From the IMG/VR virus record IMGVR_UViG_3300020195_000966, positions 1 through 40,734 of that record: a DNA stretch of 40,734 nt; one strand, 5' to 3'. The DNA comes from a virus. The position numbers and the translations under genes were made by a program. The notes beneath the pieces are model-generated. The model searched no databases and was not told where the DNA came from. It worked only from the letters and a program-made list of their open reading frames with translations. Every line of letters begins with the position of its first letter. Within the stretch, counting starts at the first letter, position 1. Of this stretch, positions 28,721-40,678 are shown in pieces.

Positions 28721-28914
28721 TATAGACTGCCTTTTTGGCAGGAGCGGTTTTTTTGGAGGGCCGGTTCAGAAGGGGTCCGCGTGGTAGTAGAGAGAGGGTA
28801 GGTGTAGGGGTTTTTGACCCCCATCCCTATTAGAAATATCTCTTAAATACGGCTCGTCTTCCTAGGCGTAGGGAGGGCGGGCCGTCTCTCATTATACGCC
28901 ATGGAGTACTCGCT
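28721..28914 (+). promoter_or_regulatory. intergenic region with hairpins and a possible promoter
   Basis: CTGCC-TTTTT-GGCAG at 28730-28744 forms a small hairpin followed by GCGGTTTTTTTGG, a plausible weak terminator for the preceding gene. GGGG-TTTTTGA-CCCC near 28807-28821 is a second hairpin. TTGACC at 28814-28819 with TATCTC at 28837-28842 (17 bp apart) is a moderate promoter candidate for the small-gene region. GAGAGAGGG near 28791-28799 resembles the recurring GAGAGGG motif further right. Confidence 0.35.
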
Positions 28915-29127
28915 ATGGAATTCATTCCATACGCGGAGGCGGTGCAGTGGGCCGTTGCTGGCTCGAACGGGAAGGAGAGCATCTTGCTCTTCTTCTCCAA
29001 CGCGGAGGACACCATCGATGCCTATAGTGGCATCGAGGGGTGTCAGGGGTGGTCGTCGCAGGTCGGGAAGCTCAAGTTTCCCGGTCAGATCATCGACATT
29101 CAGTGGAATGTCGGTTGGGCCAAGTAA
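28915..29127 (+). CDS. small hypothetical protein
   Basis: A 70-residue protein (MEFIPYAEAVQWAVAGSNGK...IIDIQWNVGWAK) with alternating hydrophobic and polar residues, suggesting a small mixed fold. The start has GGAG eight bases upstream. A longer frame from 28901 in another phase is not supported. No family was recognised. Confidence 0.6.
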   Translation: MEFIPYAEAVQWAVAGSNGKESILLFFSNAEDTIDAYSGIEGCQGWSSQVGKLKFPGQIIDIQWNVGWAK

Positions 29128-29137
29128 GAAGGCCGAA

Positions 29138-29174
29138 ACGCCGATCGCCTCGGCGTCTGCAGGTTATGCCTGCA
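29138..29174 (+). terminator. two adjacent intercistronic hairpins
   Basis: ACGCCGA-TCGCC-TCGGCGT (29138-29156) and TGCAGG-TTATG-CCTGCA (29158-29174) are perfect small stems placed one after the other between two small genes. No T-run follows, so processing or mRNA protection is as likely as termination. Confidence 0.45.
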
Positions 29175-29307
29175 CTGACGATGGCCAGAAGAAAGGAGAG
29201 ACGTCAGAGAGATGGTTGAGACAGGAGCCTCGACGCCCTGGCACTCGCTGTCTGTAACTTGGCATGTTGCTAAGCCGGACAGTCGACCGGGGAAAGAGGT
29301 CTGTACC

Positions 29308-29505
29308 ATGGTGCAGAACAACGTGTCGGTAACCTTCGTCGTGTCCACCCCCACGCAGCTGCTGCTGCTGGCGAGGTTCTTCCGGACCATCGCGGTCCGG
29401 AGCGTCGAGGGGGACATCGAAGTGCTCGTGGAGAATCCGTCCCGCCATGACGTCGATGCCGCGCTTGCGGTCTGCGGACTGCAGGTCGCGTACTACGACG
29501 AGTGA
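29308..29505 (+). CDS. small hypothetical protein
   Basis: A 65-residue protein starting at MVQNNVSVTFVVSTP, with AGAGG eight bases before the ATG. Its pattern (QLLLLARFFRTIAV, DIEVLVENPS, DVDAALAVCGLQVAYYDE) suggests a small alpha/beta fold. An in-frame ATG at 29212 would add 32 residues that do not look coding, so I prefer the shorter form. Function unknown. Confidence 0.55.
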   Translation: MVQNNVSVTFVVSTPTQLLLLARFFRTIAVRSVEGDIEVLVENPSRHDVDAALAVCGLQVAYYDE

Positions 29506-29511
29506 TAGGGA

Positions 29512-29547
29512 ACGCCGGAGAGGAAGACCGTTCTTCCTCTCCGGCGT
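29512..29547 (+). terminator. perfect 16-bp stem-loop
   Basis: The arms ACGCCGGAGAGGAAGA and its exact complement flank a CCGT loop, immediately after the stop of the preceding small gene; GTCTTGTTCTG follows. It is the first of the long perfect stems that separate genes in this arm. It may terminate transcription weakly or serve as a processing site. Confidence 0.6.
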
Positions 29548-29611
29548 GTCTTGTTCTGTGCATGAGACAGAAGTGCCCGAGCGTCGGGGCTCCTGTTAGA
29601 GGCAGTAGGAG

Positions 29612-29634
29612 GAGCCAAGCATGTTGCTTGGCTC
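29612..29634 (+). terminator. perfect 10-bp stem-loop upstream of Cys-rich gene
   Basis: GAGCCAAGCA and TGCTTGGCTC pair perfectly around a TGT loop, followed by TGTTCGTTTGT. The TGT triloop and GCA/TGC closing resemble the stem-loops further right. Confidence 0.5.
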
Positions 29635-29666
29635 TGTTCGTTTGTATCGCCCCAGAGGATGAGAAC

Positions 29667-29942
29667 ATGCAGAGCTGGGAGAGGTGTATGGCCGAGAGGG
29701 TAGTGGCAGCGATCAGGGACAAATGTTGTCCCTGGTGCTGCTGCCCAAACATTCAGGGCGAATGCCCTGAATGCTGTCCGGCAGACTACGAGCCGGACGG
29801 GGAGGGGCACGACGATGTGGACTGGGAGAACGCCGAGGAGATCGCCGACCCGCCGGCGAGCCCATCCTGGGCACAGGCCTGCCCGTACTGCGGGACGCAA
29901 AACGTCCCGTACAATGAATGTCCTGGCTGCATCCCCTTCTGA
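29667..29942 (+). CDS. Cys-rich putative zinc-binding protein
   Basis: A 91-residue acidic protein with two clusters of cysteine pairs: KCCPWCCCPNIQGECPECC near residue 19-37 and ACPYCGTQNVPYNECPGC near residue 71-88. The second is a clean double CxxC knuckle as in zinc ribbons. Start chosen at MQSWERC, with AGAGGA seven bases upstream. It could be a small regulator of nucleic acid binding or protein contact; this is not resolvable from sequence. Confidence 0.65.
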   Translation: MQSWERCMAERVVAAIRDKCCPWCCCPNIQGECPECCPADYEPDGEGHDDVDWENAEEIADPPASPSWAQACPYCGTQNVPYNECPGCIPF

Positions 29943-29948
29943 GATGCG

Positions 29949-29982
29949 TGCCGTGTTCCCCTCACAGTACGGGAACACGGCA
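29949..29982 (+). terminator. 12-bp stem-loop
   Basis: TGCCGTGTTCCC and GGGAACACGGCA pair perfectly around CTCACAGTAC, just after the stop of the Cys-rich gene. A second imperfect hairpin (GAACC ... GGTTC) follows at about 29991-30016. Confidence 0.5.
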
Positions 29983-30094
29983 TCTACCTGAACCTTGCAC
30001 TACGCAAGACAGGTTCCGTTCGCCCTGGAGGAAAAAAGGCTGAGCTGAGTCGAGCAACCGCCCCTGACGTCGTGTGACGCCGGGGGAGAAAAGT

Positions 30095-30124
30095 GTGTGC
30101 GGGGGATTGCAGTCCCCCGCACAC
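30095..30124 (+). promoter_or_regulatory. 12-bp stem-loop in the leader of the polymerase-like gene
   Basis: GTGTGCGGGGGA and TCCCCCGCACAC pair perfectly around TTGCAG. Just downstream, GGTTGTTCC and GGAGGAACC can form an imperfect hairpin that would hold the GGAGG ribosome site (30144-30148) of the next gene. Translation may therefore be controlled by structure. Confidence 0.45.
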
Positions 30125-30157
30125 GGGTTGTTCCACCCTCCCAGGAGGAACCTTGCC

Positions 30158-32641
30158 ATGATGACGGCTAACAAGCCGGAGGTCAAGGTAAGCGGAAGGA
30201 CGGTGACTGTAGTCCAGGTCACCGCCGCCGGAGAGAAGGTAGCCCGGAAGTACCGGGTGCCAATCTCTCGCCTTTCGGAAACGCTCGGGCGTATCGCCCG
30301 AGCGGAGCCGAAAGCTGAAGTCAGGGTCAGTTTCCCTGGCGTCAGCCGACGCCAGGTGAAGGAGGTCCTCAGTCTCCTCACGCAGGAGATTCTGGACATC
30401 TATGGCCCGGGGATCGACAGCTGGGGCTGGAAGCCCCTGGTCGAGGTTGCCGGGCTTCGGGTTCGAAAGCTCGTGCTGCCGAAGGTCAGGAAGGACGATG
30501 ACCCCGAGGTCATCCGGCAGCTGGTGATGCGAAAGGTCGCATCACCTCAACCGACCCTCGCCGTCCCAGTGGACGGCGGGGTGCTCCTGGCGTATGCCGA
30601 CCAGGAGGGCTGGCTGACGGCCTATGAGGCCGTCGGTGTGGTCTTCAAGGGGGGCAAGAAGCCCTTCAAGCGGGCGAAGAGCCTGCTCAGTAGGTTTCCC
30701 ATCACCGCCAGGCTGGCGGTGGTGAAGGTCGCCATCCTCGACGACGAGGCCGATATCCTCGACGGATACGGCCTCGTCCGCGAGAGCTGGGTGCGGGCTC
30801 GCATCCAGGAGATGCGGCCTGCCTTGGTCGGGGAGTCCAAGAAGGACTTCCAGATCAAGGAAGCTTTCAAGGCCATGATGGCCAAAGCGAGGCGTAGCGA
30901 GTGGTTCTCCTTCCGGGGCGTGCTCCCGGAAGGGTTCCTGAAATGCCACCTGCGGGTGGTAGAAGACGGCAAGTTCCCGGATCCCTCGGCGGACATCGTC
31001 GTCCACCGCGGGAACATCAAGAACGAGATCGCCAGCAGCGGCGACTCGTTCGTGGGAATGCTGCCGATTGGCAGCCATGGGGCGGCCCGGGTCAATGTGC
31101 AGCTCCTGGCTGCACATCCCTGGCTCTTTCCGGAGAGCGAGGTCGTGGAGTGGGCACACGACCAGCTACGGAAAGTGTACCGGGGGATCATCGGCGGAGA
31201 GCTCGGCGAGACCATCGGGAAGTTGATGGTTGCGGAGCAGGCCCAGGCGGAGGGCCTGGGGGAAGAGTCCATGTACCTGAGGATGAGGTGGACGGCCCTC
31301 CGGCTGTTCGGCCTCGGGTACAGGTTCGAGAACGCCCCCGCCCTGGGCGTTCGGTACGCGGAGGCCATGAGCCGGCCTATCGCGAGACGGAGTGAAGACG
31401 GGAAGGTGCTGAAGCTAGGGGTAGAGATACCCTGTAGCTGGGAGGGACAGCCCGTGTCCTCCTCCTTCGCCAGCCTCCTCGGATTCCCCGAGGATCGGCT
31501 GCCGCAGGGCAACGAAGTCCGGCGTCTGCCGGGCTTCGACTTCGCCGTCATCACTGACGCGAAGTGGCGGGCACTGAATCGCTTCGGGTCGTGGGGTAGC
31601 CACGACGGCGATGACTTCGTGGTGTGGGTATACCGCACCATCGAAGGGCAGCGGAAGGTCATTGGGGTCCGCAACCCCAGCGACCGAGGCGGCTATGCCG
31701 TCTTCGATTACGTGGACGGGGACGTGCGTCCCCTGTCCACCCGGATGGATGAGAGGGGTATCAAGTGCGGGGTGAGCTTCCCTGCACTTGATATCTCCAG
31801 CCGTACCCCGAGCAAGGAGGAGCTCGGGGTGGTGCATGTGGCTCCCACGGCGGAGGTGAAGCACATCAACTTCACCTCCGCCGAGGTGGAGGAGGAGGTC
31901 ACGCACCTCCTCAAGGGCGACAGCCCCGGGGCCTTCGCCAATCTGATCATGGCCCTCAACGTGATGGGGCCACAGGACAGCGGGCAGGATCGCCCCTGCT
32001 CGATGGACGATGGCATCGATGCCATGGTCCAGGGGACCAATCGCGAGCTCATCGCCAAGATCCAAGGATGGATCGAGGCGGTGAGTCGCGGGATCGTCAT
32101 GGAAGACGTCCCGTTCGACACCTACATGGCGGCGAAGTGCCGCTTCCAAGTCCCGTTCGACCTCCAGGAGGAGGGGTACGAACTGGTAGTCCGCGACGGC
32201 CTCGTCACCAGGATCTTCAAGGAGATCGAGAGTCGCCGCAAGGCGATGCTGGTTCTCCTGGAGAACTGGCTCCAGCGGCATCACGAGATGCCGCCCGTGC
32301 TTCGCGAGAAGTACGGTGTCGCGGAAGATGATGAGGCGTACCGCCGCCTCAAGGGCATCGTCGGGAAATTCCGCTTCGCCTGCTACCGGGCGATGCAGGG
32401 TCCCACGGAGTACCGCAAGGAAGCGATGGCGGTGGCGGTGGCGGCGGTGGCGGCGGCGGTTCCCAAGGAGGAGATCGGGCTCCTCGGGTACCTGCTGCAC
32501 AGGTACCCAACCAGCCAGGGGAGGATCTCGGAGGGGATCCTCTACAGTGAGGACCTCGTAGAGGGGTACATCGAGTCTCTGGGGGGTGTCGAGGGCGACA
32601 TCCTCCTGTACCCCGACGACGGCGGGGAAGAGGTGGAGTAG
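30158..32641 (+). CDS. putative divergent two-barrel (QDE-1/YonO-like) RNA polymerase
   Basis: An 827-residue protein, the largest in the small-gene arm. Motifs in order: D202-G-Y-G, like the DG.G before the first barrel of cellular RdRPs and YonO-like enzymes; RGVLPEGFLK with Lys262; IVVHRGNIK with Lys288; RVNVQLLAAHPWL with the Q of the family's 'Q.L..L' stretch; VEIPCSWEG near 422-430, where family members have a (R/K)xPC motif; then FDFAVITDAKW and GSHDGDDFVVW near 480-490, which matches DxDGDxxxVxW except that the first Asp is Ser481. RNPSDRGG follows soon after. The ATG has AGGAGG nine bases upstream. The missing first aspartate and low overall similarity keep this tentative. An unrelated replication protein is the alternative. 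Confidence 0.4.
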   Translation: MMTANKPEVKVSGRTVTVVQVTAAGEKVARKYRVPISRLSETLGRIARAEPKAEVRVSFPGVSRRQVKEVLSLLTQEILDIYGPGIDSWGWKPLVEVAGLRVRKLVLPKVRKDDDPEVIRQLVMRKVASPQPTLAVPVDGGVLLAYADQEGWLTAYEAVGVVFKGGKKPFKRAKSLLSRFPITARLAVVKVAILDDEADILDGYGLVRESWVRARIQEMRPALVGESKKDFQIKEAFKAMMAKARRSEWFSFRGVLPEGFLKCHLRVVEDGKFPDPSADIVVHRGNIKNEIASSGDSFVGMLPIGSHGAARVNVQLLAAHPWLFPESEVVEWAHDQLRKVYRGIIGGELGETIGKLMVAEQAQAEGLGEESMYLRMRWTALRLFGLGYRFENAPALGVRYAEAMSRPIARRSEDGKVLKLGVEIPCSWEGQPVSSSFASLLGFPEDRLPQGNEVRRLPGFDFAVITDAKWRALNRFGSWGSHDGDDFVVWVYRTIEGQRKVIGVRNPSDRGGYAVFDYVDGDVRPLSTRMDERGIKCGVSFPALDISSRTPSKEELGVVHVAPTAEVKHINFTSAEVEEEVTHLLKGDSPGAFANLIMALNVMGPQDSGQDRPCSMDDGIDAMVQGTNRELIAKIQGWIEAVSRGIVMEDVPFDTYMAAKCRFQVPFDLQEEGYELVVRDGLVTRIFKEIESRRKAMLVLLENWLQRHHEMPPVLREKYGVAEDDEAYRRLKGIVGKFRFACYRAMQGPTEYRKEAMAVAVAAVAAAVPKEEIGLLGYLLHRYPTSQGRISEGILYSEDLVEGYIESLGGVEGDILLYPDDGGEEVE

Positions 32642-32658
32642 AGACGCCGTGATAGGGA

Positions 32659-32697
32659 ATGACAAGAGCTGCAGCAACATGCTGCAGCTCTTGTCAT
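32659..32697 (+). terminator. perfect 18-bp stem-loop with GCAGCA/TGCTGC core
   Basis: An uninterrupted 18-bp stem with an ACA triloop, a few bases after the polymerase-like gene's stop. The core GAGCTGCAGCA pairs with TGCTGCAGCTC. Related stems with compensatory changes occur four more times downstream, always between a stop codon and a 51-nt element. Confidence 0.65.
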
Positions 32698-32703
32698 CCT
32701 TGT

Positions 32704-32754
32704 GACCCCGGGCAGGATCGGCCTGCCTCGTCGGCTTCGATGCCGACCGGGGTC
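32704..32754 (+). ncRNA. 51-nt three-way-junction element, copy 1
   Basis: Outer stem GACCCCG/CGGGGTC (7 bp) encloses hairpin GGCAGG-ATCGG-CCTGCC and hairpin GTCGGC-TTCGAT-GCCGAC. TTTCGCTCA follows, as in all copies. The third stem uses a T-A pair where copies 3-5 use C-G, so pairing is maintained. This copy is not followed by a gene at once but by a 390-bp non-coding stretch. Confidence 0.7.
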
Positions 32755-32763
32755 TTTCGCTCA

Positions 32764-33010
32764 ACGCCGGGGGAAGAGGGGATGGGTTCCTTTCTCCCTC
32801 CTCCCCCGACGTGAGTATAGCCCTCCACACGTCTCAGCGTACCTGGGATAGTCTGGGATCCTGGCAAGCTTACCCACACAATCGGCAGACAGGTCATCTC
32901 ATCTCCGAGTTTGGTTTTTCAAGTTGAGGGGGATGGGTATTGTGTTACCTGTCCAGTAGGCTACGTGCGTGAGAGCTCCGGTAGCTTTCACTGTCACGGC
33001 CTGCTCGACT
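32764..33010 (+). other. non-coding stretch with a GAGAGGG-like motif
   Basis: No credible gene. CGCCGGGGGA and a C-rich counterpart near 32802-32811 form a large imperfect hairpin. AAGTTGAGGGGG at 32921-32932 matches the recurring AAGTTGAGAGGG motif and may start a transcript running into the next 51-nt element and gene. Confidence 0.4.
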
Positions 33011-33061
33011 GACCTCGGCAAGGATCGGCCTGCTACGTCGGCTTCGATGCCGGCCGGGGTC
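33011..33061 (+). ncRNA. 51-nt three-way-junction element, copy 2
   Basis: The most diverged copy. Outer stem GACCTCG/CGGGGTC has a T-G wobble, the third stem GTCGGC/GCCGGC has one wobble, and the second hairpin has lost perfect pairing (GCAAGG). TTTCGCTCA is conserved after it. Length is still exactly 51 nt. Confidence 0.6.
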
Positions 33062-33072
33062 TTTCGCTCAGT

Positions 33073-33137
33073 AAGTGGAGAGGGAGCCTGTAAGGTACAG
33101 GTTCCCACAGTGTGTGCAGGGTCGCCACTGCGGCCCT
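33073..33137 (+). promoter_or_regulatory. type I leader: AAGTGGAGAGGG motif plus two hairpins
   Basis: AAGTGGAGAGGGAG (33073-33086) leads directly into hairpin GGGAGCCTGTA-AGG-TACAGGTTCCC (33082-33106, one G-T pair). A second hairpin AGGGTCGC-CACT-GCGGCCCT (33118-33137) follows, then the CCAGGAG ribosome site. If GGG is the transcript start, the mRNA begins with a hairpin. Confidence 0.5.
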
Positions 33138-33153
33138 TGACCAGGAGAATGCC

Positions 33154-33876
33154 ATGTTCATCAGCACCAGCACCAGCACGTCCCCGTCCGCCGCGGCCCT
33201 CCGTGGCATCCATCGCTTGGCCACGGTCCACGCGCACGCGTGGGCCTATGAGTGCTCGGAGGACGAGCTGGTCGAGAACCAGGTCCTCGCCTTCGAGAAG
33301 GCCACGGAGGCCATGGAGGCCTCCGAGCACAGGCCCATCGGCCTGCGCCCGTCCCTCAGCCATGTGACCGGTACGGGGCGGCTGTCGTGGAGCCCCAGCT
33401 GGGACGGGCAGGGGATCCGGCTGGAGGTCAGCCGCCCCGCCGGCGGCGTGGTCTCCGGGCAGGGAGGGTATACCGTGGCGGTCGGGCGCGTCAACTGGGA
33501 CCAGGACGGCAAGCTCGACGTCTCCGTCCTGGTCGACGCCCGCCCGGGCGTAGGAGTCCAGCTCCGACACCTCTCCGTCCTAGAGGAGGCGGTCGCGGCG
33601 GCGATCGGCTCCTACGAGACCCCGATCGAGGCGGAGGGCTGGGCCCTGGAGCGCGTGCGTATGCATGCGGAGGGTAGCTGGTTCGACGACGAGTACTTCG
33701 GCGGCTCCGCCGCCGAGCTCGTCGTCCGCCTGGACGTCGAGTCGGCCGCCCTGGACGCCGCGCGGGCCCTGGCCCTGGCTACCGGCTGCTACCCGAGCCG
33801 GGGGCGGCCGAGCTACCAGGATCCGACGCCCGAGGCGGCCCTCGACGCCGAGCCGGACGCGGCTCTGGTGCCGTGA
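33154..33876 (+). CDS. hypothetical protein, paralogue of the gene at 34886-35656
   Basis: A 240-residue acidic alpha/beta protein starting MFISTSTSTS, with CCAGGAG six bases upstream. Shared with its paralogue: LRG-[IV]-HRLA-x-VH-x-HAWAYECSEDE, EASEHRP-[IV]-GL, PSLSHVTGTGRLSW, RPAGGVVSGQG-x-YTVAVG, EEAVAAAIGSYET-x-IEAE and LDVESAALDAARALALA. Identity is high in the body, while the C-terminal 30 residues differ. No membrane segment and no recognised motif. The N-terminal 'MFIS' and leader are shared with the next gene, as in a module duplication. Function unknown. Confidence 0.7.
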   Translation: MFISTSTSTSPSAAALRGIHRLATVHAHAWAYECSEDELVENQVLAFEKATEAMEASEHRPIGLRPSLSHVTGTGRLSWSPSWDGQGIRLEVSRPAGGVVSGQGGYTVAVGRVNWDQDGKLDVSVLVDARPGVGVQLRHLSVLEEAVAAAIGSYETPIEAEGWALERVRMHAEGSWFDDEYFGGSAAELVVRLDVESAALDAARALALATGCYPSRGRPSYQDPTPEAALDAEPDAALVP

Positions 33877-33884
33877 GGTAGGGG

Positions 33885-33915
33885 CAAGAGTCGCAGCAAC
33901 ATGCTGCGACTCTTG
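33885..33915 (+). terminator. 14-bp perfect stem-loop
   Basis: CAAGAGTCGCAGCA pairs with TGCTGCGACTCTTG around an ACA loop. Compared with the stem at 32659 the inner pairs changed from CTG/CAG to TCG/CGA with pairing kept. Confidence 0.65.
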
Positions 33916-33926
33916 TCCTCTCGTAT

Positions 33927-33977
33927 GACCCCGGGCAGGATCGGCCTGCCATGCCGGCTTCGATGCCGGCCGGGGTC
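33927..33977 (+). ncRNA. 51-nt three-way-junction element, copy 3
   Basis: Fully paired reference copy. P1 GACCCCG/CGGGGTC, P2 GGCAGG/CCTGCC with ATCGG loop, P3 GCCGGC/GCCGGC with TTCGAT loop, and two unpaired bases (AT) between P2 and P3. TTTCGCTCAG follows. Confidence 0.7.
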
Positions 33978-33988
33978 TTTCGCTCAGT

Positions 33989-34053
33989 AAGTGGAGAGGG
34001 AGCCTGTAAGGTACAGGTTCCCACAGTGTGTGCAGGGTCGCAATGGCGGCCCT
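33989..34053 (+). promoter_or_regulatory. type I leader, second copy
   Basis: Nearly identical to the leader at 33073: AAGTGGAGAGGGAG, then GGGAGCCTGTA-AGG-TACAGGTTCCC, then AGGGTCGC-AATG-GCGGCCCT. The loop of the last hairpin differs (AATG against CACT) while its stem is conserved. Followed by the CCAGGAG ribosome site. Confidence 0.5.
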
Positions 34054-34069
34054 TGACCAGGAGAATGCC

Positions 34070-34234
34070 ATGTTCATCAGCCAGACGTCCTCCGAAGTCG
34101 CCCCCGCCCCCGCCCCCAAGTGTGAGCACGACGATACCATGCAGGTCGACGGTCTGGCGGGCGATCCCCTCCGGATCGTGCGGTGCAGCGACTGCGGGAA
34201 GGAGGGGAGCATCTGCACGCTCCTCGAGGAGTGA
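34070..34234 (+). CDS. small putative zinc-binding protein
   Basis: A 54-residue protein: MFISQTSSEVAPAPAPK, then CEHDDTM and, further on, VRCSDCGKEGS. The C-x-H plus CxxC pairs suggest one bound zinc. Start set by CCAGGAG six bases upstream, in the same leader context as the 240-residue gene. Function unknown. Confidence 0.65.
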   Translation: MFISQTSSEVAPAPAPKCEHDDTMQVDGLAGDPLRIVRCSDCGKEGSICTLLEE

Positions 34235-34237
34235 TAG

Positions 34238-34280
34238 GGAGGACAAGAGTCGCAGCATGTTGCTGCGACTCTTGTCCTCT
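34238..34280 (+). terminator. 19-20-bp stem-loop with TGT loop
   Basis: GGACAAGAGTCGCAGCA pairs with its exact complement around TGT, extended by two or three more pairs at the base. It overlaps the region just after the stop of the small zinc protein gene. Confidence 0.65.
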
Positions 34281-34285
34281 CGTAT

Positions 34286-34336
34286 GACCCCGGGCAGGAT
34301 CGGCCTGCCATGCCGGCTTCGATGCCGGCCGGGGTC
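34286..34336 (+). ncRNA. 51-nt three-way-junction element, copy 4
   Basis: Identical in sequence to copy 3 as far as I can read, with TTTCGCTCAG after it, but it is followed by the other (type II) leader. This shows that the 51-nt element and the leader are separate parts. Confidence 0.7.
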
Positions 34337-34347
34337 TTTCGCTCAGA

Positions 34348-34399
34348 AAGTTGAGAGGGCGCGTTGTGCGCCCGGTCGGTTCGAGGTCGCCCAGAGGAG
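34348..34399 (+). promoter_or_regulatory. type II leader: AAGTTGAGAGGG motif plus GGGCGC hairpin
   Basis: AAGTTGAGAGGGCG (34348-34361) leads into GGGCGC-GTTGT-GCGCCC (34357-34373). Then GGTCGGTTCGAGGTCG and a GAGGAG ribosome site seven bases before the next ATG. Confidence 0.5.
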
Positions 34400-34406
34400 T
34401 GTAACG

Positions 34407-34649
34407 ATGGTCAAGACTCTAGTGTATCTGTCAGGCGAAGCCTTCCCCCGTCTCTGTGTCGGTGGTCGGCTCCTGTGGCTTGGGCCGCGGGGCGCGGGAG
34501 AAAACCTCCACGAGCCCGGTGCGGGCTCGGAGTCCTTCTGCGACGAGCTGCCCGACGGTGACTACCAGACCGTCCAGGGCAGCGACCCTTCCCAGTGGTG
34601 TCCCCCCATGCCTGTCGGGCAAAGGATTGTTAGCGTCATGGATCTGTGA
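34407..34649 (+). CDS. 80-residue hypothetical protein, copy A
   Basis: An 80-residue protein: VKTLVYLSGEAFPRLCVGGRLLWLGPRGAGENLHEPG ... SDPSQWCPPMPVGQRIVSVMDL. The gene at 35833 encodes a same-length paralogue, very similar except for residues 44-57, where the acidic variable segment differs. No membrane segment; two or three conserved Cys and Trp. Function unknown. GAGGAG sets the ATG. Confidence 0.7.
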   Translation: MVKTLVYLSGEAFPRLCVGGRLLWLGPRGAGENLHEPGAGSESFCDELPDGDYQTVQGSDPSQWCPPMPVGQRIVSVMDL

Positions 34650-34686
34650 CGCCGACGGCGGGCGCGGCGCTGGTGCCGTGAGGTAG

Positions 34687-34721
34687 GGCAAGAGCCGCAG
34701 CATGTTGCTGCGGCTCTTGCC
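34687..34721 (+). terminator. 16-bp perfect stem-loop with TGT loop
   Basis: GGCAAGAGCCGCAGCA pairs with TGCTGCGGCTCTTGCC. Relative to the stem at 34238, two inner pairs and the basal pair changed on both arms together. Confidence 0.65.
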
Positions 34722-34742
34722 ATCTTGTCAACCATTCCCCGT

Positions 34743-34793
34743 GATCCCGGGCAGGATCGGCCTGCCATGCCGGCTTCGGTGCCGGCCGGGGTC
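34743..34793 (+). ncRNA. 51-nt three-way-junction element, copy 5
   Basis: P1 begins GATCCCG (a T-G wobble with CGGGGTC), P2 and P3 are perfect, and the P3 loop is TTCGGT instead of TTCGAT. TTTCGCTCAG follows. Confidence 0.7.
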
Positions 34794-34804
34794 TTTCGCT
34801 CAGT

Positions 34805-34868
34805 AAGTGGAGAGGGAGCCTGTAAGGTACAGGTTCCCACAGTGTGTAGGGCTGCAAAGGCAGCCCTT
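34805..34868 (+). promoter_or_regulatory. type I leader, third copy with compensatory hairpin changes
   Basis: AAGTGGAGAGGGAG and the GGGAGCCTGTA hairpin match the other type I leaders. The second hairpin reads AGGGCTGC-AAAG-GCAGCCCT: both arms differ from AGGGTCGC/GCGGCCCT, yet all eight pairs are kept. CCAGGAG follows. Confidence 0.55.
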
Positions 34869-34885
34869 GACCAGGAGATGTGACC

Positions 34886-35656
34886 ATGTCCAGCTTCAGC
34901 CGATCCACGCCGTCCCAAGAAGTCCTCCGTGGCGTCCACCGCCTCGCGGTGGTCCACTCCCACGCCTGGGCCTATGAGTGTTCGGAGGACGAGATGGCGG
35001 CGGACTTCGGAGAGTGCTTCCTTCTCGCCATCGAAAGGATGGAAGCCTCCGAACACCGGCCCGTGGGTCTATATCCGTCCCTCAGCCATGTGACCGGTAC
35101 GGGGCGACTGTCGTGGGAAGTCGCCCTGGACGGGCGAGGGATCGAGCTACGGGTCGATCGCCCCGCCGGGGGCGTCGTGTCCGGGCAGGGACGGTATACC
35201 GTGGCGGTCGGCCACGTCGACTGGGACGGCGGCGGCAATCTCACGGTGTCGCTCCTGGTCGACGCCAGGCCGGAAGTCGGCGTGCACCTCCGGCACGTCG
35301 CCGTCATGGAGGAGGCTGTCGCGGCTGCCATCGGCAGCTACGAAACCTCCATCGAAGCCGAGAGGGGGGCACTCGACCGCGTGCGTATGCACGCGGGCGA
35401 CTGGAGGTGTGATCAGTATTTCGGCGGAACCGCGGCGGAGTTGGCCAGCCGACTCGACGTCGAGTCGGCCGCCCTGGACGCCGCGCGGGCCCTGGCCCTG
35501 GCGAGCCCGCCTGGGTACCAAACGGGTCGGAGCTACTTCGATGGTTTCGCAGCTGGCGAGCCGGTCGCCGTGGGCGTCGCCGGCTGGGAGCCGGACACAT
35601 CGACTCTGCCGTGGCCGTCTGTCGAGCGGGAGCCGGACCCCTCGATTGTGCCGTGA
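34886..35656 (+). CDS. hypothetical protein, paralogue of the gene at 33154-33876
   Basis: A 256-residue protein starting MSSFSRSTPSQEVLRGVHRLAVVHSHAWAYECSEDE; CCAGGAG lies eight bases before the ATG (a GTG six bases earlier is possible). The body is closely similar to the 240-residue paralogue, with conserved HAWAYECSEDE, PSLSHVTGTGRLSW, RPAGGVVSGQG and LDVESAALDAARALALA. The C-terminal tail is longer and different (GEPVAVGVAGWEPD, EREPDPSIVP). Two diverged copies, each followed by an 80-residue protein gene, indicate duplication of a multi-gene segment. Function unknown. Confidence 0.7.
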   Translation: MSSFSRSTPSQEVLRGVHRLAVVHSHAWAYECSEDEMAADFGECFLLAIERMEASEHRPVGLYPSLSHVTGTGRLSWEVALDGRGIELRVDRPAGGVVSGQGRYTVAVGHVDWDGGGNLTVSLLVDARPEVGVHLRHVAVMEEAVAAAIGSYETSIEAERGALDRVRMHAGDWRCDQYFGGTAAELASRLDVESAALDAARALALASPPGYQTGRSYFDGFAAGEPVAVGVAGWEPDTSTLPWPSVEREPDPSIVP

Positions 35657-35657
35657 T

Positions 35658-35705
35658 GGGGATGACAAGAGCCGCAGCATGTTGCTGCGGCTCTTGTCAT
35701 TCCCC
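35658..35705 (+). terminator. very long stem-loop (about 22 bp, one bulge)
   Basis: ATGACAAGAGCCGCAGCA pairs perfectly with its complement around TGT, and four outer G-C pairs extend it past one bulged T. This is the longest of the five related stems. Confidence 0.65.
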
Positions 35706-35707
35706 GT

Positions 35708-35758
35708 GACCCCGGGCAGGATCGGCCTGCCTTGTCGGCTTCGATGCCGACCGGGGTC
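35708..35758 (+). ncRNA. 51-nt three-way-junction element, copy 6
   Basis: P1 and P2 as in the reference copy. P3 is GTCGGC/GCCGAC, a T-A pair in place of C-G, shared with copy 1. Followed by TTTCGCTCAG and the type II leader. Confidence 0.7.
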
Positions 35759-35769
35759 TTTCGCTCAGA

Positions 35770-35826
35770 AAGTTGAGAGGGCGCGTTGTGCGCCCGGTCG
35801 GTTCGAGGTCGCCCATTTCGGAGTGT
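35770..35826 (+). promoter_or_regulatory. type II leader, second copy
   Basis: AAGTTGAGAGGGCG followed by GGGCGC-GTTGT-GCGCCC, identical to the leader of the first 80-residue gene through the GGTCGCCC segment, then diverging near the ribosome site (CGGAG). Confidence 0.5.
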
Positions 35827-35832
35827 CAAGGC

Positions 35833-36075
35833 ATGAAGACTCTGGTGTATCTGTCGGGGGAAGGGTTCCCGCGGCTCTGTACCGGCGGGCGGCTCCTGTG
35901 GCTCGGGCCGCGGGGTGCAGGCGAAAACCTCCACGAGCCCGGTGCGGTCTCGGAGTCCTGCTGGGACGAGACGGAGGAGCCCGGGGTCTACGTGGACGTG
36001 GAGGTCAGCGACCCTTCCCAGTGGTGTCCCCCCGTGCCGAAGGGAGTCAGGATCGTCAGCGTCATGGATCTGTGA
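35833..36075 (+). CDS. 80-residue hypothetical protein, copy B
   Basis: Paralogue of the gene at 34407, same length, starting MKTLVYLSGEGFPRLCTGGRLLWLGPRG and ending KGVRIVSVMDL. The segment CWDETEEPGVYVDVEV replaces FCDELPDGDYQTVQG of copy A. It is preceded by the same type II leader. Kept as two copies with a variable centre, it could be under diversifying selection. Function unknown. Confidence 0.7.
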   Translation: MKTLVYLSGEGFPRLCTGGRLLWLGPRGAGENLHEPGAVSESCWDETEEPGVYVDVEVSDPSQWCPPVPKGVRIVSVMDL

Positions 36076-36142
36076 CGCCGACGCGGTAAGCGCTGATGCC
36101 GCCACCTGGGGCCGCGTCCGTGCCGTGACAGGAGCCGAGAGA

Positions 36143-36176
36143 AAGTTGAGAGGGAGACCAATGTGGTCTCCCTCTC
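36143..36176 (+). promoter_or_regulatory. AAGTTGAGAGGG motif with 13-bp stem-loop
   Basis: AAGTTGAGAGGGAG (36143-36156) runs into GAGAGGGAGACCA-ATG-TGGTCTCCCTCTC (36148-36176), a perfect stem. No 51-nt element is present here. The next gene's AGGAG follows 14 bases later. Confidence 0.5.
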
Positions 36177-36206
36177 TCGTGTCCATGTGCCGAACAGGAG
36201 CAAGTC

Positions 36207-36602
36207 ATGCAGACTTCAACCGCAGCCACCACCGCCGCCCCCAAGTGGTGGGCACTCGACAACCTGACAGAGGGGATCAGCTACATCCCTCTGTCCCCGG
36301 AGGCACCAGACCTCTGGTGCACCCACGATACGGGTAGCAGCCGGCGGTGCTATCGGGTCTGCGGCATGTACGTCGTACATGCCCCCGATGGCGGGATGTA
36401 CACCAGGCCGTGCCTGGTGCGGGAGGACCTCGTCCGGCGGGGTGCCGACCCCCTCAAGGCGGTGTTCCCCGCATGGAGCAGCGCCCCATGCTGGACCGTG
36501 CGGAGGTCCGCCAAAGAGGACGCACCCGTCAAGGTGCCTCGCCGGGCACACCTCGACGGGTACTGGTTCGCGGTCGGCAACCCTACCGACCGCGTGAAGT
36601 AG
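36207..36602 (+). CDS. hypothetical protein
   Basis: A 131-residue protein with a Thr/Ala-rich start, then WWALDNLTEGISYIPLSPEAPDLWC and YVVHAPDGGMYTRPCLVREDLVRRGADPL, and a Trp-rich centre. Probably one small globular domain. AGGAG seven bases before the ATG. No family recognised. Confidence 0.65.
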   Translation: MQTSTAATTAAPKWWALDNLTEGISYIPLSPEAPDLWCTHDTGSSRRCYRVCGMYVVHAPDGGMYTRPCLVREDLVRRGADPLKAVFPAWSSAPCWTVRRSAKEDAPVKVPRRAHLDGYWFAVGNPTDRVK

Positions 36603-36627
36603 TCACCTTCGCCCGGAGGAGATGCAA

Positions 36628-36849
36628 ATGGCTCTGATGATAAGTGTTCAGCGTCTCAGTGACGGGTCGTACGAGGCTCAGGCAGAGGGCCTGATGCCCG
36701 GCGTTGGGCCGACGCCGCACGAGGCACTCGTCAGCCTCGACCTGAGCGAGGCTGCCTTCGGCTGGGCATGCTTCAGCCAGGTCTTCGATGATGTCGAGGA
36801 CGACCACTACTGCTCCGAGTCGGAGCCGTCCGGCTTCGGCACGTCTTGA
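36628..36849 (+). CDS. small acidic hypothetical protein
   Basis: A 73-residue acidic protein (MALMISVQRLSDGSYEAQAEGLMPGVGPTPHEAL...FDDVEDDHYCSESEP). The opening strand-turn-strand with 'GP-TPHEAL' resembles short HicB-like N-terminal folds, but the match is weak and I do not assign it. GGAGGAG six bases upstream favours this ATG over the one at 36622. Confidence 0.55.
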   Translation: MALMISVQRLSDGSYEAQAEGLMPGVGPTPHEALVSLDLSEAAFGWACFSQVFDDVEDDHYCSESEPSGFGTS

Positions 36850-36892
36850 CCTACACGTTCGTGTCCCTACACCTTCGCCCGAGGGTCCAAGT

Positions 36893-37000
36893 ATGAACTG
36901 CAAGAAGACGAGTCCAGACACCCGCCGCAGCCAGCTCGCTCAGCTGAACGAGCTGGTTCGGCTGGCATACCCGAACGGGAAGGGTAAGCCGGCAAAGTGA
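36893..37000 (+). CDS. very small basic protein
   Basis: A 35-residue basic peptide: MNCKKTSPDTRRSQLAQLNELVRLAYPNGKGKPAK, with GAGGG eight bases before the ATG and a clear gap to its neighbours. The central RRSQLAQLNELVRLA could be an amphipathic helix. Probably real given the dense packing of this arm; function unknown. Confidence 0.45.
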   Translation: MNCKKTSPDTRRSQLAQLNELVRLAYPNGKGKPAK

Positions 37001-37011
37001 TCCCCCACCCG

Positions 37012-37048
37012 AGTGTGAGGGGAGGGGCATAGCCTCTCCCCTCACACT
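37012..37048 (+). terminator. 17-bp stem-loop with one wobble pair
   Basis: AGTGTGAGGGGAGGGGC pairs with GCCTCTCCCCTCACACT around ATA. It is GAGGGG-rich like the transcript-start hairpins, and the next ribosome site (AAGGAGA) follows 8 bases on. Confidence 0.55.
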
Positions 37049-37067
37049 TCAATGCAAGGAGAACAAC

Positions 37068-37310
37068 ATGCTGACAGAAGAGTTGCTACGGGTCTGCCAT
37101 GAGCGGCAGACCCGCATCCACCTCGGCTCCAAGCAGACGGGTGACCCCAGGCTGGAGCTGATGGTAGTGATCTCCGGCCCCAACGTCCTCGTCGAACGAT
37201 GGGTCGACGGGGAGTGGAGCAGCAGCTTCCACGTCCCCGAGATCCAAGAGGACATCCGGGCAGCAATCCAAGCCCTGGACCACAGACTGCTGCAGCTGCT
37301 CCATGAGTAG
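37068..37310 (+). CDS. small hypothetical protein
   Basis: An 80-residue protein: MLTEELLRVCHERQTRIHLG, LMVVISGPNVLVERWVDGEWSS, EIQEDIRAAIQALDHRLLQLLHE, giving helix-strand-strand-helix. AAGGAGA six bases upstream. Function unknown. Confidence 0.6.
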   Translation: MLTEELLRVCHERQTRIHLGSKQTGDPRLELMVVISGPNVLVERWVDGEWSSSFHVPEIQEDIRAAIQALDHRLLQLLHE

Positions 37311-37331
37311 CCGCAGCAAAGTGACCCGATG

Positions 37332-37371
37332 AAGTTGAGAGGGAGGGAGCAAGACTACAATGCTCCCTCCC
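37332..37371 (+). promoter_or_regulatory. AAGTTGAGAGGG motif with stem-loop
   Basis: AAGTTGAGAGGGAG (37332-37345) then GGGAGGGAGCA-(9 nt)-TGCTCCCTCCC. The same motif-then-GGG-hairpin order as elsewhere, placed 22 bases before the next gene. Confidence 0.5.
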
Positions 37372-37392
37372 CTCACTGTAAAGGAGAGACTG

Positions 37393-37632
37393 ATGGTTGT
37401 CTACGCTGTCGAAGCCTGCGAGTGCTTCACCGACGAGTACCGCGAATGGGTAGTCGCGGTATTCAGACTAGAGGCCGATGCCCAGCAGCGTGTAGCGCTA
37501 CTGAAGCAGTACGTCCAGGAAGAGGAGGAGGCAACGAGGCCCTCGGATCGGAAGTGCCCGCTCGACCCCATGTTCGAGCACTTCGGCACACACAGGACAC
37601 GATACACCTGCAAGCCACTGGAAGTGCTGTAG
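37393..37632 (+). CDS. small hypothetical protein
   Basis: A 79-residue protein (MVVYAVEACECFTDEYREWVVAVFRLEADAQQRVALLKQYVQEEEEA ... KCPLDPMFEHFGTHRTRYTCKPLEVL) that looks like a small alpha/beta fold with three or four Cys. An ATG 33 bases upstream is inside the hairpin and is unlikely. AAGGAGA sets the start. Function unknown. Confidence 0.6.
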   Translation: MVVYAVEACECFTDEYREWVVAVFRLEADAQQRVALLKQYVQEEEEATRPSDRKCPLDPMFEHFGTHRTRYTCKPLEVL

Positions 37633-37641
37633 GCGTGTGGA

Positions 37642-37678
37642 GTCTTGAGCGGGAGGGAGCATTGCTCCCTCCCGCTCA
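37642..37678 (+). promoter_or_regulatory. TTGAGCGGGAG motif with near-perfect palindrome
   Basis: AGTCTTGAGCGGGAG is a variant of the recurring motif. TGAGCGGGAGGGAGCA pairs with TGCTCCCTCCCGCTCA around a single T, so it can form a cruciform or a stem of about 14 bp with a small loop. It precedes the tight operon of overlapping genes. Confidence 0.5.
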
Positions 37679-37706
37679 TTGTTAAAGTGGAAGAGGAGAA
37701 GCTTCA

Positions 37707-37907
37707 ATGACTGAGAGCGGTCCGTCATGGGCCACAGACCTGTGGCGCACAGTGGCCAAAGTACGCCGGGGAGAGGAGGATAAGGAACTGGCATTTCTTA
37801 TCTCCCTCGTGCGGGAGAACAAGACAGAGCCCGAAGGCAAGAAACAAACCATGTTGCAGGCCTGCGAGGAACGCATGCAGCAACTACAAGTGGAGGAGTA
37901 TCCGTGA
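37707..37907 (+). CDS. small helical hypothetical protein
   Basis: A 66-residue protein, helical throughout (WATDLWRTVAKVRRGEEDKELAFLISLVRENK, TMLQACEERMQQLQVEEYP). First gene of a run of overlapping genes; its last four bases overlap the next gene's GTG (GTGA). Function unknown. Confidence 0.6.
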   Translation: MTESGPSWATDLWRTVAKVRRGEEDKELAFLISLVRENKTEPEGKKQTMLQACEERMQQLQVEEYP

Positions 37908-38212
37908 CAACTGCCCCCTTCGAGATCCGCCTACTCCCTGAAGAGGGCCGGATCGTGCTCGGGGGGACCATGGATGGCTCCCCTGAAGTCTACGCAGAGA
38001 TCGAGGAAGTAGCCAAGCAGGCACAAAGTCAGGAGAAGTGGATTGTCGATGCGACGGAGGTTCTCCTGAAGAGCTGGGGAACTGTGGGCTGGATACAGGC
38101 CGTCCACAAGTACCTGCGTAACTGTCAGCTGACCTACGTTCAGTGTCAACTTCTGGCGGTTTTGCAGAACATCGAGGAGGCAACACATCGCCAAGAGGAG
38201 GGCAAGACATGA
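37904..38212 (+). CDS. STAS-like domain protein
   Basis: A 102-residue protein with the layout of small STAS (SpoIIAA-like) proteins. It has an opening FEIRLLPEEGRIVLGGTMDG; a central strand WIVDATEVLLKSWGTVGWIQAVHKYLRN, in the place of 'vDls.v..inSsGv..W'; and an end strand with YVQCQLLAVLQNIEEA. STAS proteins are partner-binding switches; no partner is visible. It starts at GTG in a four-base overlap and ends with ATGA into the next gene, so the three are translated together. Confidence 0.45.
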   Translation: MTTAPFEIRLLPEEGRIVLGGTMDGSPEVYAEIEEVAKQAQSQEKWIVDATEVLLKSWGTVGWIQAVHKYLRNCQLTYVQCQLLAVLQNIEEATHRQEEGKT

Positions 38213-38727
38213 TCCACATAAGGTGGATGGTGAAGGGAGATGTGCAGGGACAGGGAGGGGTCGTCCAGCACTGCGACCCGACAGGAATAGGCAGCGATGC
38301 CTTCATACAATTCCTCAGACAGCCTCATATCATAGGGCAAGTCGCCGAAGACGGCGACCGGATGCTGGGCTGGATCATGTACGAAATGGGCCCATGGTGG
38401 GTCCACGTCCATGATATGGACATCCGAACGGACTCGCCGTTCGAAGAGGGCATGGAGGCACTGAAGGCCCTGGTCTACAGGGCAATGAGGGCCGCCCTGC
38501 AAAGTTGCGGACGTCGGCCAGTCGTGACACTGCAAGTGGCCGACAAGGACCTGCCCCTGCAGCTGCTGCTCAAGGACCTAGGCTTCAAGGGCAGTGTACT
38601 GGATCGACAGACATATCTGTTCCAGTACGGACAGGTGCCAGCGCAAGTCTGCCTCCCGTCAGGAACAAACCGGATCGCACATCTCCTTGATGCGACGCCG
38701 GGAGAAGAAGGAGAACCATGTACTTGA
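38209..38727 (+). CDS. GNAT-like acetyltransferase
   Basis: A 172-residue protein with a GNAT-type outline: QVAEDGDRMLGWIMYEMGPWWVHVHDMDI (beta strands and the region before motif A), FEEGMEALKALVYRAMRAALQSCGRRPVVTLQVADKDLPLQLLLKDLGFKG (helix, strand, helix and the 'LGF.' end). The usual Q/RxxGxG/A acetyl-CoA loop is not well matched, so activity is uncertain. GGAGGG and an ATGA overlap set the start. Confidence 0.5.
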   Translation: MIHIRWMVKGDVQGQGGVVQHCDPTGIGSDAFIQFLRQPHIIGQVAEDGDRMLGWIMYEMGPWWVHVHDMDIRTDSPFEEGMEALKALVYRAMRAALQSCGRRPVVTLQVADKDLPLQLLLKDLGFKGSVLDRQTYLFQYGQVPAQVCLPSGTNRIAHLLDATPGEEGEPCT

Positions 38728-38891
38728 TCTACATGGTGGAGAAGACTGGACGAGGCCAGTATTGGACCGGCCACTACTGGGCCTCAAGGGTCGAGCAGGC
38801 AAGAGTCATGCTCGCCGAGGAAGAAGCAAAGAAAGAGCTCGCCTACGTGACCGAGCTCTACCCGTTCGCCAAACTCAGGAGGCTCGCGTGA
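38718..38891 (+). CDS. small hypothetical protein overlapping its neighbours
   Basis: A 57-residue protein: MYLIYMVEKTGRGQYWTGHYWASRVEQARVMLAEEEAKKELAYVTELYPFAKLRRLA. It overlaps the previous gene by ten bases and the next by four (GTGA), with AAGGAGA upstream. The helix with repeated Ala-Glu-Glu and the WTGHYW segment suggest a small alpha/beta domain. Function unknown. Confidence 0.6.
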   Translation: MYLIYMVEKTGRGQYWTGHYWASRVEQARVMLAEEEAKKELAYVTELYPFAKLRRLA

Positions 38892-39244
38892 AAATAGTCA
38901 ACGTCAAGGGGATGCATCCCGACAGCGGGATCGTCTACTGCGGCAGAGAGTGGGCCGGGTGGCCCAGCAGCGTGTGGGGCAACCCCTACCGCGAAGGACG
39001 GGACGGCTCCCGTACAGAAATAATCGAGAAGTTTCGTGTGTACCTGCAAAAGATGTTGGCAGGTAAAAGCCCCGCCGCACGAAACATGCAGGAGGAGCTG
39101 GCAGACCTGACAGAGCGATCCGTCCTCGGGTGCTGGTGCACTCCACTCCGATGCCACTGTGAGGTGATCGCGGAGGAGTGGGAGAAGAGGTACAGCCTAG
39201 ACGCAGAGTGGGAGAAGCGGTACGGAAATGGAGGAGCGAGATGA
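38888..39244 (+). CDS. DUF4326-family protein
   Basis: A 118-residue protein matching the DUF4326 pattern: VKIVNVKGMHPDSGIVYCGREWAGWPSSVWGNPY near the start, RTEIIEKFRVYLQKML in the middle, and VLGCWCTPLRCHCEVIAEEW near the end, with the CWC-x-P-x-x-CH knuckle. The function of this family is not established. A duplicate YSLDAEWEKRY segment follows an EEWEKRY, a small internal repeat of about 11 residues. Start at GTG with AGGAGG five bases upstream; the longer upstream frame is an overlap with the small gene. Confidence 0.75.
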   Translation: MKIVNVKGMHPDSGIVYCGREWAGWPSSVWGNPYREGRDGSRTEIIEKFRVYLQKMLAGKSPAARNMQEELADLTERSVLGCWCTPLRCHCEVIAEEWEKRYSLDAEWEKRYGNGGAR

Positions 39245-39399
39245 GCTACACGCTAGTGGCAACTCTGAGCCATCGTTCTTGCGAGGTGACGTTCACCTCG
39301 TCGCGGGCGGCAATGACCGCCGGCATGCATTTCCTTCTGTTCGGATACTCAATCCGAATTGAGACGGCCTCTCAGGAAAGTAACCTGACGGAGGGGTAG
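39241..39399 (+). CDS. small hypothetical protein
   Basis: A 52-residue protein (MSYTLVATLSHRSCEVTFTSSRAAMTAGMHFLLFGYSIRIETASQES), starting with an ATGA overlap and AGGAG upstream. Beta-rich with a hydrophobic centre, but no clear membrane helix. Function unknown. Confidence 0.5.
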   Translation: MSYTLVATLSHRSCEVTFTSSRAAMTAGMHFLLFGYSIRIETASQESNLTEG

Positions 39400-39409
39400 G
39401 GAGTGGAGT

Positions 39410-39508
39410 GTGGAAACACTGCTCTTGGTAGTGGGAGTGGCCATAGCCGGTGCCGCAGTGTGCGAGTACCTGCTACGTCAGCACGAACAAGGAGACCGAG
39501 ATGATTGA
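39410..39508 (+). CDS. small single-pass membrane protein
   Basis: A 32-residue peptide from GTG: (V)ETLLLVVGVAIAGAAVCEYLLRQHEQGDRDD. Residues 3-20 form one membrane span with a positive/negative tail after it. GGGAG six bases upstream supports translation, and its end overlaps the next gene by eight bases. It could be a holin-like or membrane-anchoring peptide. Confidence 0.45.
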   Translation: METLLLVVGVAIAGAAVCEYLLRQHEQGDRDD

Positions 39509-39677
39509 GTTCTACGTGTTCCTCTTCCTGATCGCACCAGGTGCGGTCAGTGTGCAGCGGACGCCGGGAGGGTACGGGGTGTCCTACGAGCCTCTGTGGC
39601 TCACCCTCGGCCGTTCCCTGCTGCCACGCAAGCAGGCCGATCCGGTGAAGTCAGCAACTGTCTTAGGCCCAGGCTGA
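39501..39677 (+). CDS. small membrane-associated hypothetical protein
   Basis: A 58-residue protein: the first 17 residues (MIEFYVFLFLIAPGAVS) form a hydrophobic signal-like or membrane segment, then a soluble basic tail (SLLPRKQADPVKSATV). AAGGAG six bases upstream fixes the ATG. Paired with the preceding 32-residue membrane peptide. Function unknown. Confidence 0.5.
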   Translation: MIEFYVFLFLIAPGAVSVQRTPGGYGVSYEPLWLTLGRSLLPRKQADPVKSATVLGPG

Positions 39678-39729
39678 ACCGCGACAGCGAACTGCCCGAC
39701 CAAACAGGCAGTGGGCATGAGGCCGGGCC

Positions 39730-39759
39730 GCGAGAGGGGGACTGCACCACCCCTCTCGC
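39730..39759 (+). terminator. 10-bp stem-loop
   Basis: GCGAGAGGGG pairs with CCCCTCTCGC around a 10-nt loop, followed by TTTCACC. An ACTGCC ... GGCAGT hairpin lies just upstream near 39690-39711. Confidence 0.5.
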
Positions 39760-39784
39760 TTTCACCTAGATGACAGGAGATCAG

Positions 39785-40063
39785 ATGAACCTCCAGGAAC
39801 TGTTCGCGGACCGTAAGAGGTGGACGCAGAAGGCATTCGCTCTCAACACGGGAGGAAATCAAACCGGCGTCTGCAGCAAAGACGCTGTAGCATTCTGCCT
39901 GTCGGGTGGATGCTACCTGCTGTACCCCGACAGCTACTTCCCAACGTACCTGAAGCTGCAGGACGCAGCGGAGGAGCTGTACAAGACGCGAGACATCCTG
40001 AAACTCAATGACAAGCTCGGCTACGACGCCGTCGTTCGCGTTGTAGCAAAAGCAGGAGTCTGA
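39785..40063 (+). CDS. DUF6197-like protein
   Basis: A 92-residue protein with a DUF6197-type layout: LQELFADRKRWTQKAFALNTGGNQ near the start, SKDAVAFCLSGGCYLLY in the middle, and LKLNDKLGYDAVVRVVAKA at the end, where the family has a 'ND..g.t.e.v...l..A' motif. Function of the family is not established. AGGAGA four bases upstream fixes the start. Confidence 0.55.
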   Translation: MNLQELFADRKRWTQKAFALNTGGNQTGVCSKDAVAFCLSGGCYLLYPDSYFPTYLKLQDAAEELYKTRDILKLNDKLGYDAVVRVVAKAGV

Positions 40064-40198
40064 AGCCGCCCTGCTGCAGCAAGAAGCAGCAGGGAAGTGA
40101 GTGCAGAGAGAGTTTGTAAGAGAGAGGGAAGAACGTGATGCCGCTGCAATGTAGCAGCGGTGCAGGTTATTCCCACAGCAAACACGAAGGAGAGACTC
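40064..40198 (+). promoter_or_regulatory. non-coding gap with two hairpins and a GAGAGGG-like sequence
   Basis: CTGCTGC-(8 nt)-GCAGCAG (about 40070-40091) ends the previous gene. AAGAGAGAGGGAAG near 40117-40130 resembles the recurring AAGTTGAGAGGG motif. Immediately after, GCCGCTGC-(6 nt)-GCAGCGGT forms a stem (about 40140-40161). The order again is motif, hairpin, ribosome site (AAGGAGA), gene. Confidence 0.4.
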
Positions 40199-40588: not shown

Positions 40589-40602
40589 GAAGGCCGTAAG
40601 GG

Positions 40603-40645
40603 GCGGGCGAGGGGAAAGCCGGCATGTGCTGGCCCCCTCGCCCGC
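40603..40645 (+). terminator. 12-bp stem with nested hairpin, followed by TTTGT
   Basis: GCGGGCGAGGGG pairs with CCCCTCGCCCGC; the loop holds GCCGGC-ATGT-GCTGGC. The short T-tract after it and its place after a stop codon favour termination. Confidence 0.6.
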
Positions 40646-40678
40646 TTTGTCTGATACCACAGCACAGGAGACCGAGCT

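Follow-up and report, generated by a model that had tools for sequence, protein, structure and literature searches.

What is the role of a 51-nt sequence that recurs six times between the early genes of a phage? The sequence is found in the IMG/VR record IMGVR_UViG_3300020195_000966, which derives from an uncultured tailed phage of bacteria. The whole record, 40,734 bases with ends that are not closed, was analysed and is referred to here as the window. The six copies lie at 32704-32754, 33011-33061, 33927-33977, 34286-34336, 34743-34793 and 35708-35758 (copies 1 to 6), are all intergenic and on the + strand, and align without gaps. As originally predicted, each is followed by the same invariant tail, TTTCGCTCA, on the + strand at 32755-32763, 33062-33070, 33978-33986, 34337-34345, 34794-34802 and 35759-35767 (identical in 6/6 copies). 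No further copy was found on either strand of the window.

The original prediction described the element as a three-way junction (3WJ), and this fold is obtained for five of the six copies. In copies 1, 3, 4, 5 and 6 the 3WJ is the minimum free energy (MFE) structure (-33.7 to -36.3 kcal/mol), with z-scores of -3.4 to -4.6 against dinucleotide shuffles, and it accounts for 80-93% of the ensemble in the four copies that were folded for the ensemble. The exception is copy 2, where C-C and A-G mismatches break stem 2 and another fold is preferred (3WJ -19.6 versus MFE -27.5). The junction consists of 19 pairs with 0/2/0 unpaired junction nucleotides. Copies 3 and 4 have the intact fold and are identical in sequence, copies 1 and 6 carry the third stem GTCGGC/GCCGAC, and copy 5 has a U-G pair in the outer stem and the loop UUCGGU. 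Loop 1 (AUCGG) and the tail, both unpaired, are 100% invariant; loop 2 (UUCGAU) shows a single A-to-G change, and the 2-nt junction linker varies among copies. Loops 1 and 2 could pair with each other (AUCG with CGAU, 4 bp; chance about 0.025), and the loop change in copy 5 would preserve this pairing through a wobble, but we regard such a loop-loop kiss as a lead only. A strict search for compact 3WJs in the 15-kb early region returned these five copies and one weak other, and no other of equal strength.

The unit common to all copies is about 62 nt long and consists of TGA, the junction and TTTCGCTCA. Its ends (TGAC and TTTCGCTCA) are kept after differing upstream sequence and before three types of leader, so that the element is independent of leader type. 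A start codon in the linker (CCATGCC, copies 3-5) was considered and rejected because it is absent in copies 1, 2 and 6. The motif CGCTCA was likewise dropped as a boxA-like sequence, as it lacks the U-run that boxA carries. No tRNA or tmRNA was found.

The copies are part of gene cassettes with the order stop codon, long hairpin (H1), junction, TTTCGCTCA, leader with one or two hairpins, Shine-Dalgarno site and gene. Whether selection acts on the RNA structure was judged from the differences among these cassettes. The compensatory changes initially cited as evidence proved to be overstated: pair 28-43 is the only pair changed on both sides (C-G and U-A, with a U-G intermediate), and the covariation score of the junction was equalled by 138 of 500 shuffles. 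A conserved RNA structure is supported instead by strand-asymmetric wobbles and by low divergence relative to the flanking genes. Among the pair columns of the 3WJ, H1 and the leader hairpins that are not Watson-Crick, 10 are G-U on the + strand and 1 is A-C (p=0.012), the 10 G-U columns not being fully independent, as one of them, column 25 of the type A leader, does not vary among its three sequences. This asymmetry is not expected of a DNA structure or of a - strand RNA, and a + strand RNA is therefore favoured. Furthermore, copies 4 and 6, which precede paralogous genes (34407-34649 and 35833-36075), differ at 3 of 51 sites, two of which form the compensating pair, whereas in the genes themselves the count is 16 of 38 fourfold sites (p=5e-5). 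Covariation is stronger in H1, where four pairs covary and the score was reached by 1 of 500 shuffles, which suggests that H1 and the 3WJ together form a structured boundary. One covarying pair was found in the leader hairpin H3.

H1 is a nearly perfect helix of 16-22 bp, without a U-tract, located on the + strand at 32657-32699 (copy 1), 33882-33918 (copy 3), 34237-34281 (copy 4), 34687-34721 (copy 5) and 35658-35704 (copy 6). The gap between H1 and the junction is 4-9 nt in most copies and 21 nt in copy 5. The expectation that every copy stands between a long stem-loop and a leader thus holds for five of six, there being no long hairpin upstream of copy 2. The H1 hairpins of copies 1 and 3 (loop ACA) are reverse complements of those of copies 4-6 (loop TGT), a pattern that inversion of the hairpin in place would give.

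Type A leaders follow copies 2, 3 and 5 and contain two + strand hairpins, H2 (33082-33106, 33998-34022 and 34814-34838) and, just before the Shine-Dalgarno site, H3 (33118-33137, 34034-34053 and 34848-34867). Type B leaders, after copies 4 and 6, have the + strand hairpin GGGCGC-GTTGT-GCGCCC (34357-34373 and 35779-35795), and copy 1 has a third form. The distance from junction to start codon is 70-92 nt, and at least five genes are preceded by the element, all of them on the + strand: 33154-33876 and its paralog 34886-35656 (65% amino acid identity), 34070-34234 (54 aa), and 34407-34649 and its paralog 35833-36075 (78%). Those at 33154-33876, 34070-34234 and 34407-34649 are of unknown function, and predicted structures of cassette proteins were too poor for use (mean pLDDT 32 and 50). 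Approximately 400 nt downstream of copy 1 have no recognisable gene; within this, the 250 nt or so at 32764-33010 contain a weak promoter-like sequence (TTTTCA-16-TATTGT at 32916-32943) and may be either a cassette gene that was lost or a non-coding RNA.

Whole 160-nt stretches and paralogous genes have been duplicated along with the copies. This supports the view, also put forward originally, that the element was amplified, apparently as part of duplicated gene-plus-leader cassettes. Copies 3 and 4 are identical while their leaders differ, and the cassettes have therefore recombined at or near the element. The suggestion that it is mobile found no support: target-site duplications are absent, and every copy has the same orientation and lies within the 3-kb cassette array, so that neither hallmark of a MITE- or REP-like element (copies in both orientations at unrelated sites, or target-site duplications) was seen.

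How could such a unit act? Neither a sigma-70-like promoter nor an AT-rich patch was found at the copies, and no promoter-like sequence is common to them. The nearest upstream promoter candidates, which are AT-rich, lie near 25.82-25.90 and 28.81-28.87 kb, and because these are 4-7 kb upstream the cassettes are probably read within a long early transcript. A scan of 25800-40734 for G+C-rich stems followed by a U-tract (5 or more T in 8), the mark of an intrinsic terminator, listed no site at either H1 or the 3WJ; the tail TTTCGCTCA has three consecutive T. H1, judged by its sequence, is more like a processing site or a roadblock than a canonical terminator. Hairpins at or near the 5' end are known to stabilise bacterial mRNAs (PMC3997798). 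Because of this resemblance of H1, and because 5' hairpins can protect mRNAs, we favour a boundary role, in which each copy would be a cis-acting + strand structured RNA marking the border of an early cassette, probably as a processing or end-protection structure. A long early transcript would carry all cassettes. The upstream message would end at H1, through cleavage or a stop, and the downstream message would begin with the compact junction as a structured and protected 5' end, so that each small gene would have its own stable mRNA. We put this forward tentatively and give it somewhat less than an even chance, ranking it above a protein-binding regulon, antitermination, neutral duplication and a promoter.

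Several observations weigh against this boundary role. The contrast between copies 2 and 5 and the fourfold sites is weak (p=0.052), a copy is nearly as well folded on the - strand as on the + strand, and the single covarying pair (28-43) is not significant on its own. Copy 2 has neither an intact stem 2 nor an H1, yet a gene still follows it. Recombination or gene conversion between copies could mimic conservation, as the identical copies 3 and 4 with their different leaders illustrate, and the structural conservation is that of related copies with no homologue outside the record.

A neutral explanation is that the element has no selected RNA function and is a palindromic spacer, a by-product of cassette duplication and recombination homogenised by gene conversion. 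The joint duplication of 160-nt stretches and paralogous genes, the identity of copies 3 and 4 in front of different leaders and the decay of copy 2 are all consistent with it. The excess of G-U over A-C columns argues against it, as do the exact unit ends preserved across three leader types and the lack of any structure-breaking change in five of the six copies, and we consider it unlikely. We give the same low probability to the idea that the junction is bound by an RNA-binding protein of the phage or its host, the six leaders forming a joint post-transcriptional regulon through the loops and TTTCGCTCA. Of the unpaired parts, the loops and tail vary least whereas the 2-nt linker is free, and at least five genes have this element in front of them, as such a regulon would have it. 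However, at 70-92 nt from the start codons the junction is too distant for a direct block of the ribosome, and no candidate RNA-binding protein was recognised.

The nearest known system in possible action is the put RNA of phage HK022, which consists of two side-by-side stem-loops of about 70 nt, occurs at two sites downstream of PL and PR, binds the beta-prime zinc-binding domain of RNA polymerase and suppresses termination (PMC9378689). Both are phage RNA structures of 50-75 nt in an early transcript, placed before genes and hairpins. This raises the speculation that the junction is an RNA-only processive antiterminator that stays on RNA polymerase and allows it to read through hairpins. Transcription of the cassettes does seem to start at a promoter kilobases upstream and to pass many strong hairpins, and the element, similar in size to put RNA, precedes each hairpin that would have to be overcome. 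In contrast to the two stem-loops of put RNA, however, the element is one closed 51-nt junction, present six times in 3 kb, which is needless for a processive factor, and the hairpins are without U-tracts; antitermination of this kind appears less probable still.

In layout, the nearest known elements are the extended start-associated sequences (ESAS) of cluster K mycobacteriophages, repeated 46-50 bp intergenic elements with an inverted repeat, found in one orientation before a subset of non-structural genes and of partly unknown function (PMC3203893, PMC11373665). ESAS and the related start-associated sequences (SAS) contain SigA-like -35/-10 hexamers 17-18 bp apart and a single 15-17 bp imperfect inverted repeat, followed by the 13-mer GGGATAGGAGCCC at the start codon (PMC3203893, PMC11373665). 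The element described here is likewise a repeated one-orientation intergenic element before non-structural genes, but it is a closed 19-pair 3WJ farther from the start codon. It contains no SigA-like hexamers at the spacing given, and by inspection it has three stems and no 13-mer before the start codon. That it is a promoter or part of one, read in the DNA by a host or phage-encoded RNA polymerase, is very improbable: although every cassette gene has one conserved block in front of it, an arrangement like that of the ESAS promoters in cluster K phages (PMC11373665), no alternative promoter can be seen close by and a large early protein (30158-32641) has no assigned function, the block holds no -10/-35 (best 8/12, not common to all copies), the wobble asymmetry indicates RNA, and the 30158 protein matches no polymerase.

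Other structured RNAs resemble the element in part. Purine riboswitch-like 3WJs have an outer stem and two hairpins with kissing loops, and a conserved unpaired junction core around the ligand. The element shares the outer stem and two hairpins, with loops that could pair (AUCG with CGAU, 4 bp), but has only two unpaired and variable junction nucleotides, no ligand core, a length of 51 nt and no Rfam match. The early message of phage T7 carries RNase III sites, strong hairpins between the early genes of one long transcript; these are similar to the arrangement here, although the T7 sites have no 3WJ and cleavage in our phage is putative. The core of a hammerhead ribozyme (CUGANGA and GAAA in a 3WJ) was not found in the junction, which has 0/2/0 unpaired nucleotides and no match in Rfam.

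The initial impression that the element belongs to no known RNA family is supported by the Rfam 15 scan, which gave 0 matches at the gathering score in the window, and by a permissive scan of 32600-36250, where matches lay only far below gathering scores. A covariance model was built from the copies, in line with the original proposal; it detected no copy beyond this record, giving no match in seven related records, which are distant relatives. A blastn search of the element against phages and plasmids returned short matches only (best E 0.04), and the cassette proteins had no match among viral contigs. In the viral contigs, exact and degenerate patterns of the element gave one chance match in an AT-rich phage and, for a second pattern, none; a tail-plus-leader pattern gave none, and a loops-plus-tail pattern eight matches that were judged to be chance. 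A loop pattern had 42 matches in 85,000 genomes; over both collections at most 12 of the 19 pairs form, and in most fewer than 10. Since these patterns required exact loops or sequence, strongly diverged homologues could be missed. The element is thus real, matches no known RNA and is so far known from one uncultured record.

In the relatives G002 and G004, several early genes have a simple hairpin 10-20 nt upstream of their Shine-Dalgarno sites. Structured spacers therefore seem to be a habit of the group, with the junction as an elaborate local form. G004 (21268-21345) and G002 (48947-49020) also share a near-identical sequence of about 45 nt that forms a 17-bp hairpin with one A-C mismatch, directly after the homologue of ORF 30158, the place taken here by H1 and copy 1.

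The genomic setting is that of a phage with few recognisable early genes. The head genes, portal and capsid, lie on the - strand to the left of 25.8 kb and have only remote matches in cultured phages; the portal is 44-53% identical in eight viral contigs, and the relatives examined are AT-richer (37-44% GC). To the right of 25.8 kb are many small + strand genes, mostly without a recognised family. The - strand structural genes and the + strand early genes diverge from an AT-rich region (25815-25898), which has sigma-70-like matches on both strands and is likely the main early promoter region. An early zone rich in hairpins (28969-37678) contains 26 with stems of at least 11 pairs, compared with 5 of this class left of 25.8 kb and 0 between 37.7 and 40.7 kb. 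ORF 30158-32641 (827 aa) has 7 long hairpins within its coding sequence, where 100 synonymous codon shuffles gave a mean of 0.56 and a maximum of 3. Its protein has distant homologues in four relatives (22-27% amino acid identity) with an invariant WGxxDxDD motif, and no known family was matched; a role as RNA polymerase, suggested by the D-x-D-D motif, has no profile support. A small early protein at 38888-39244 belongs to the DUF4326 family (Pfam E 3e-20), the only family recognised among 11 early proteins scanned.

Repeated structured elements between phage early genes are already known, and they are poorly understood. The element described here is an unusually compact and well-defined RNA fold with exact boundaries, six natural variants and one decayed copy, and its structure and function are therefore testable with small constructs. 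It is a bolder speculation, with a small chance of being correct, that the element stands for a class of small phage RNAs that is new: a 3WJ of minimal size (51 nt), possibly held closed by kissing loops and followed by the constant 9-nt tail, which would act as a plug-in before each early cassette and set transcript ends or polymerase read-through. Should the element by itself set mRNA ends or antitermination, it would count both as a portable regulatory part and as a new class of phage RNA.

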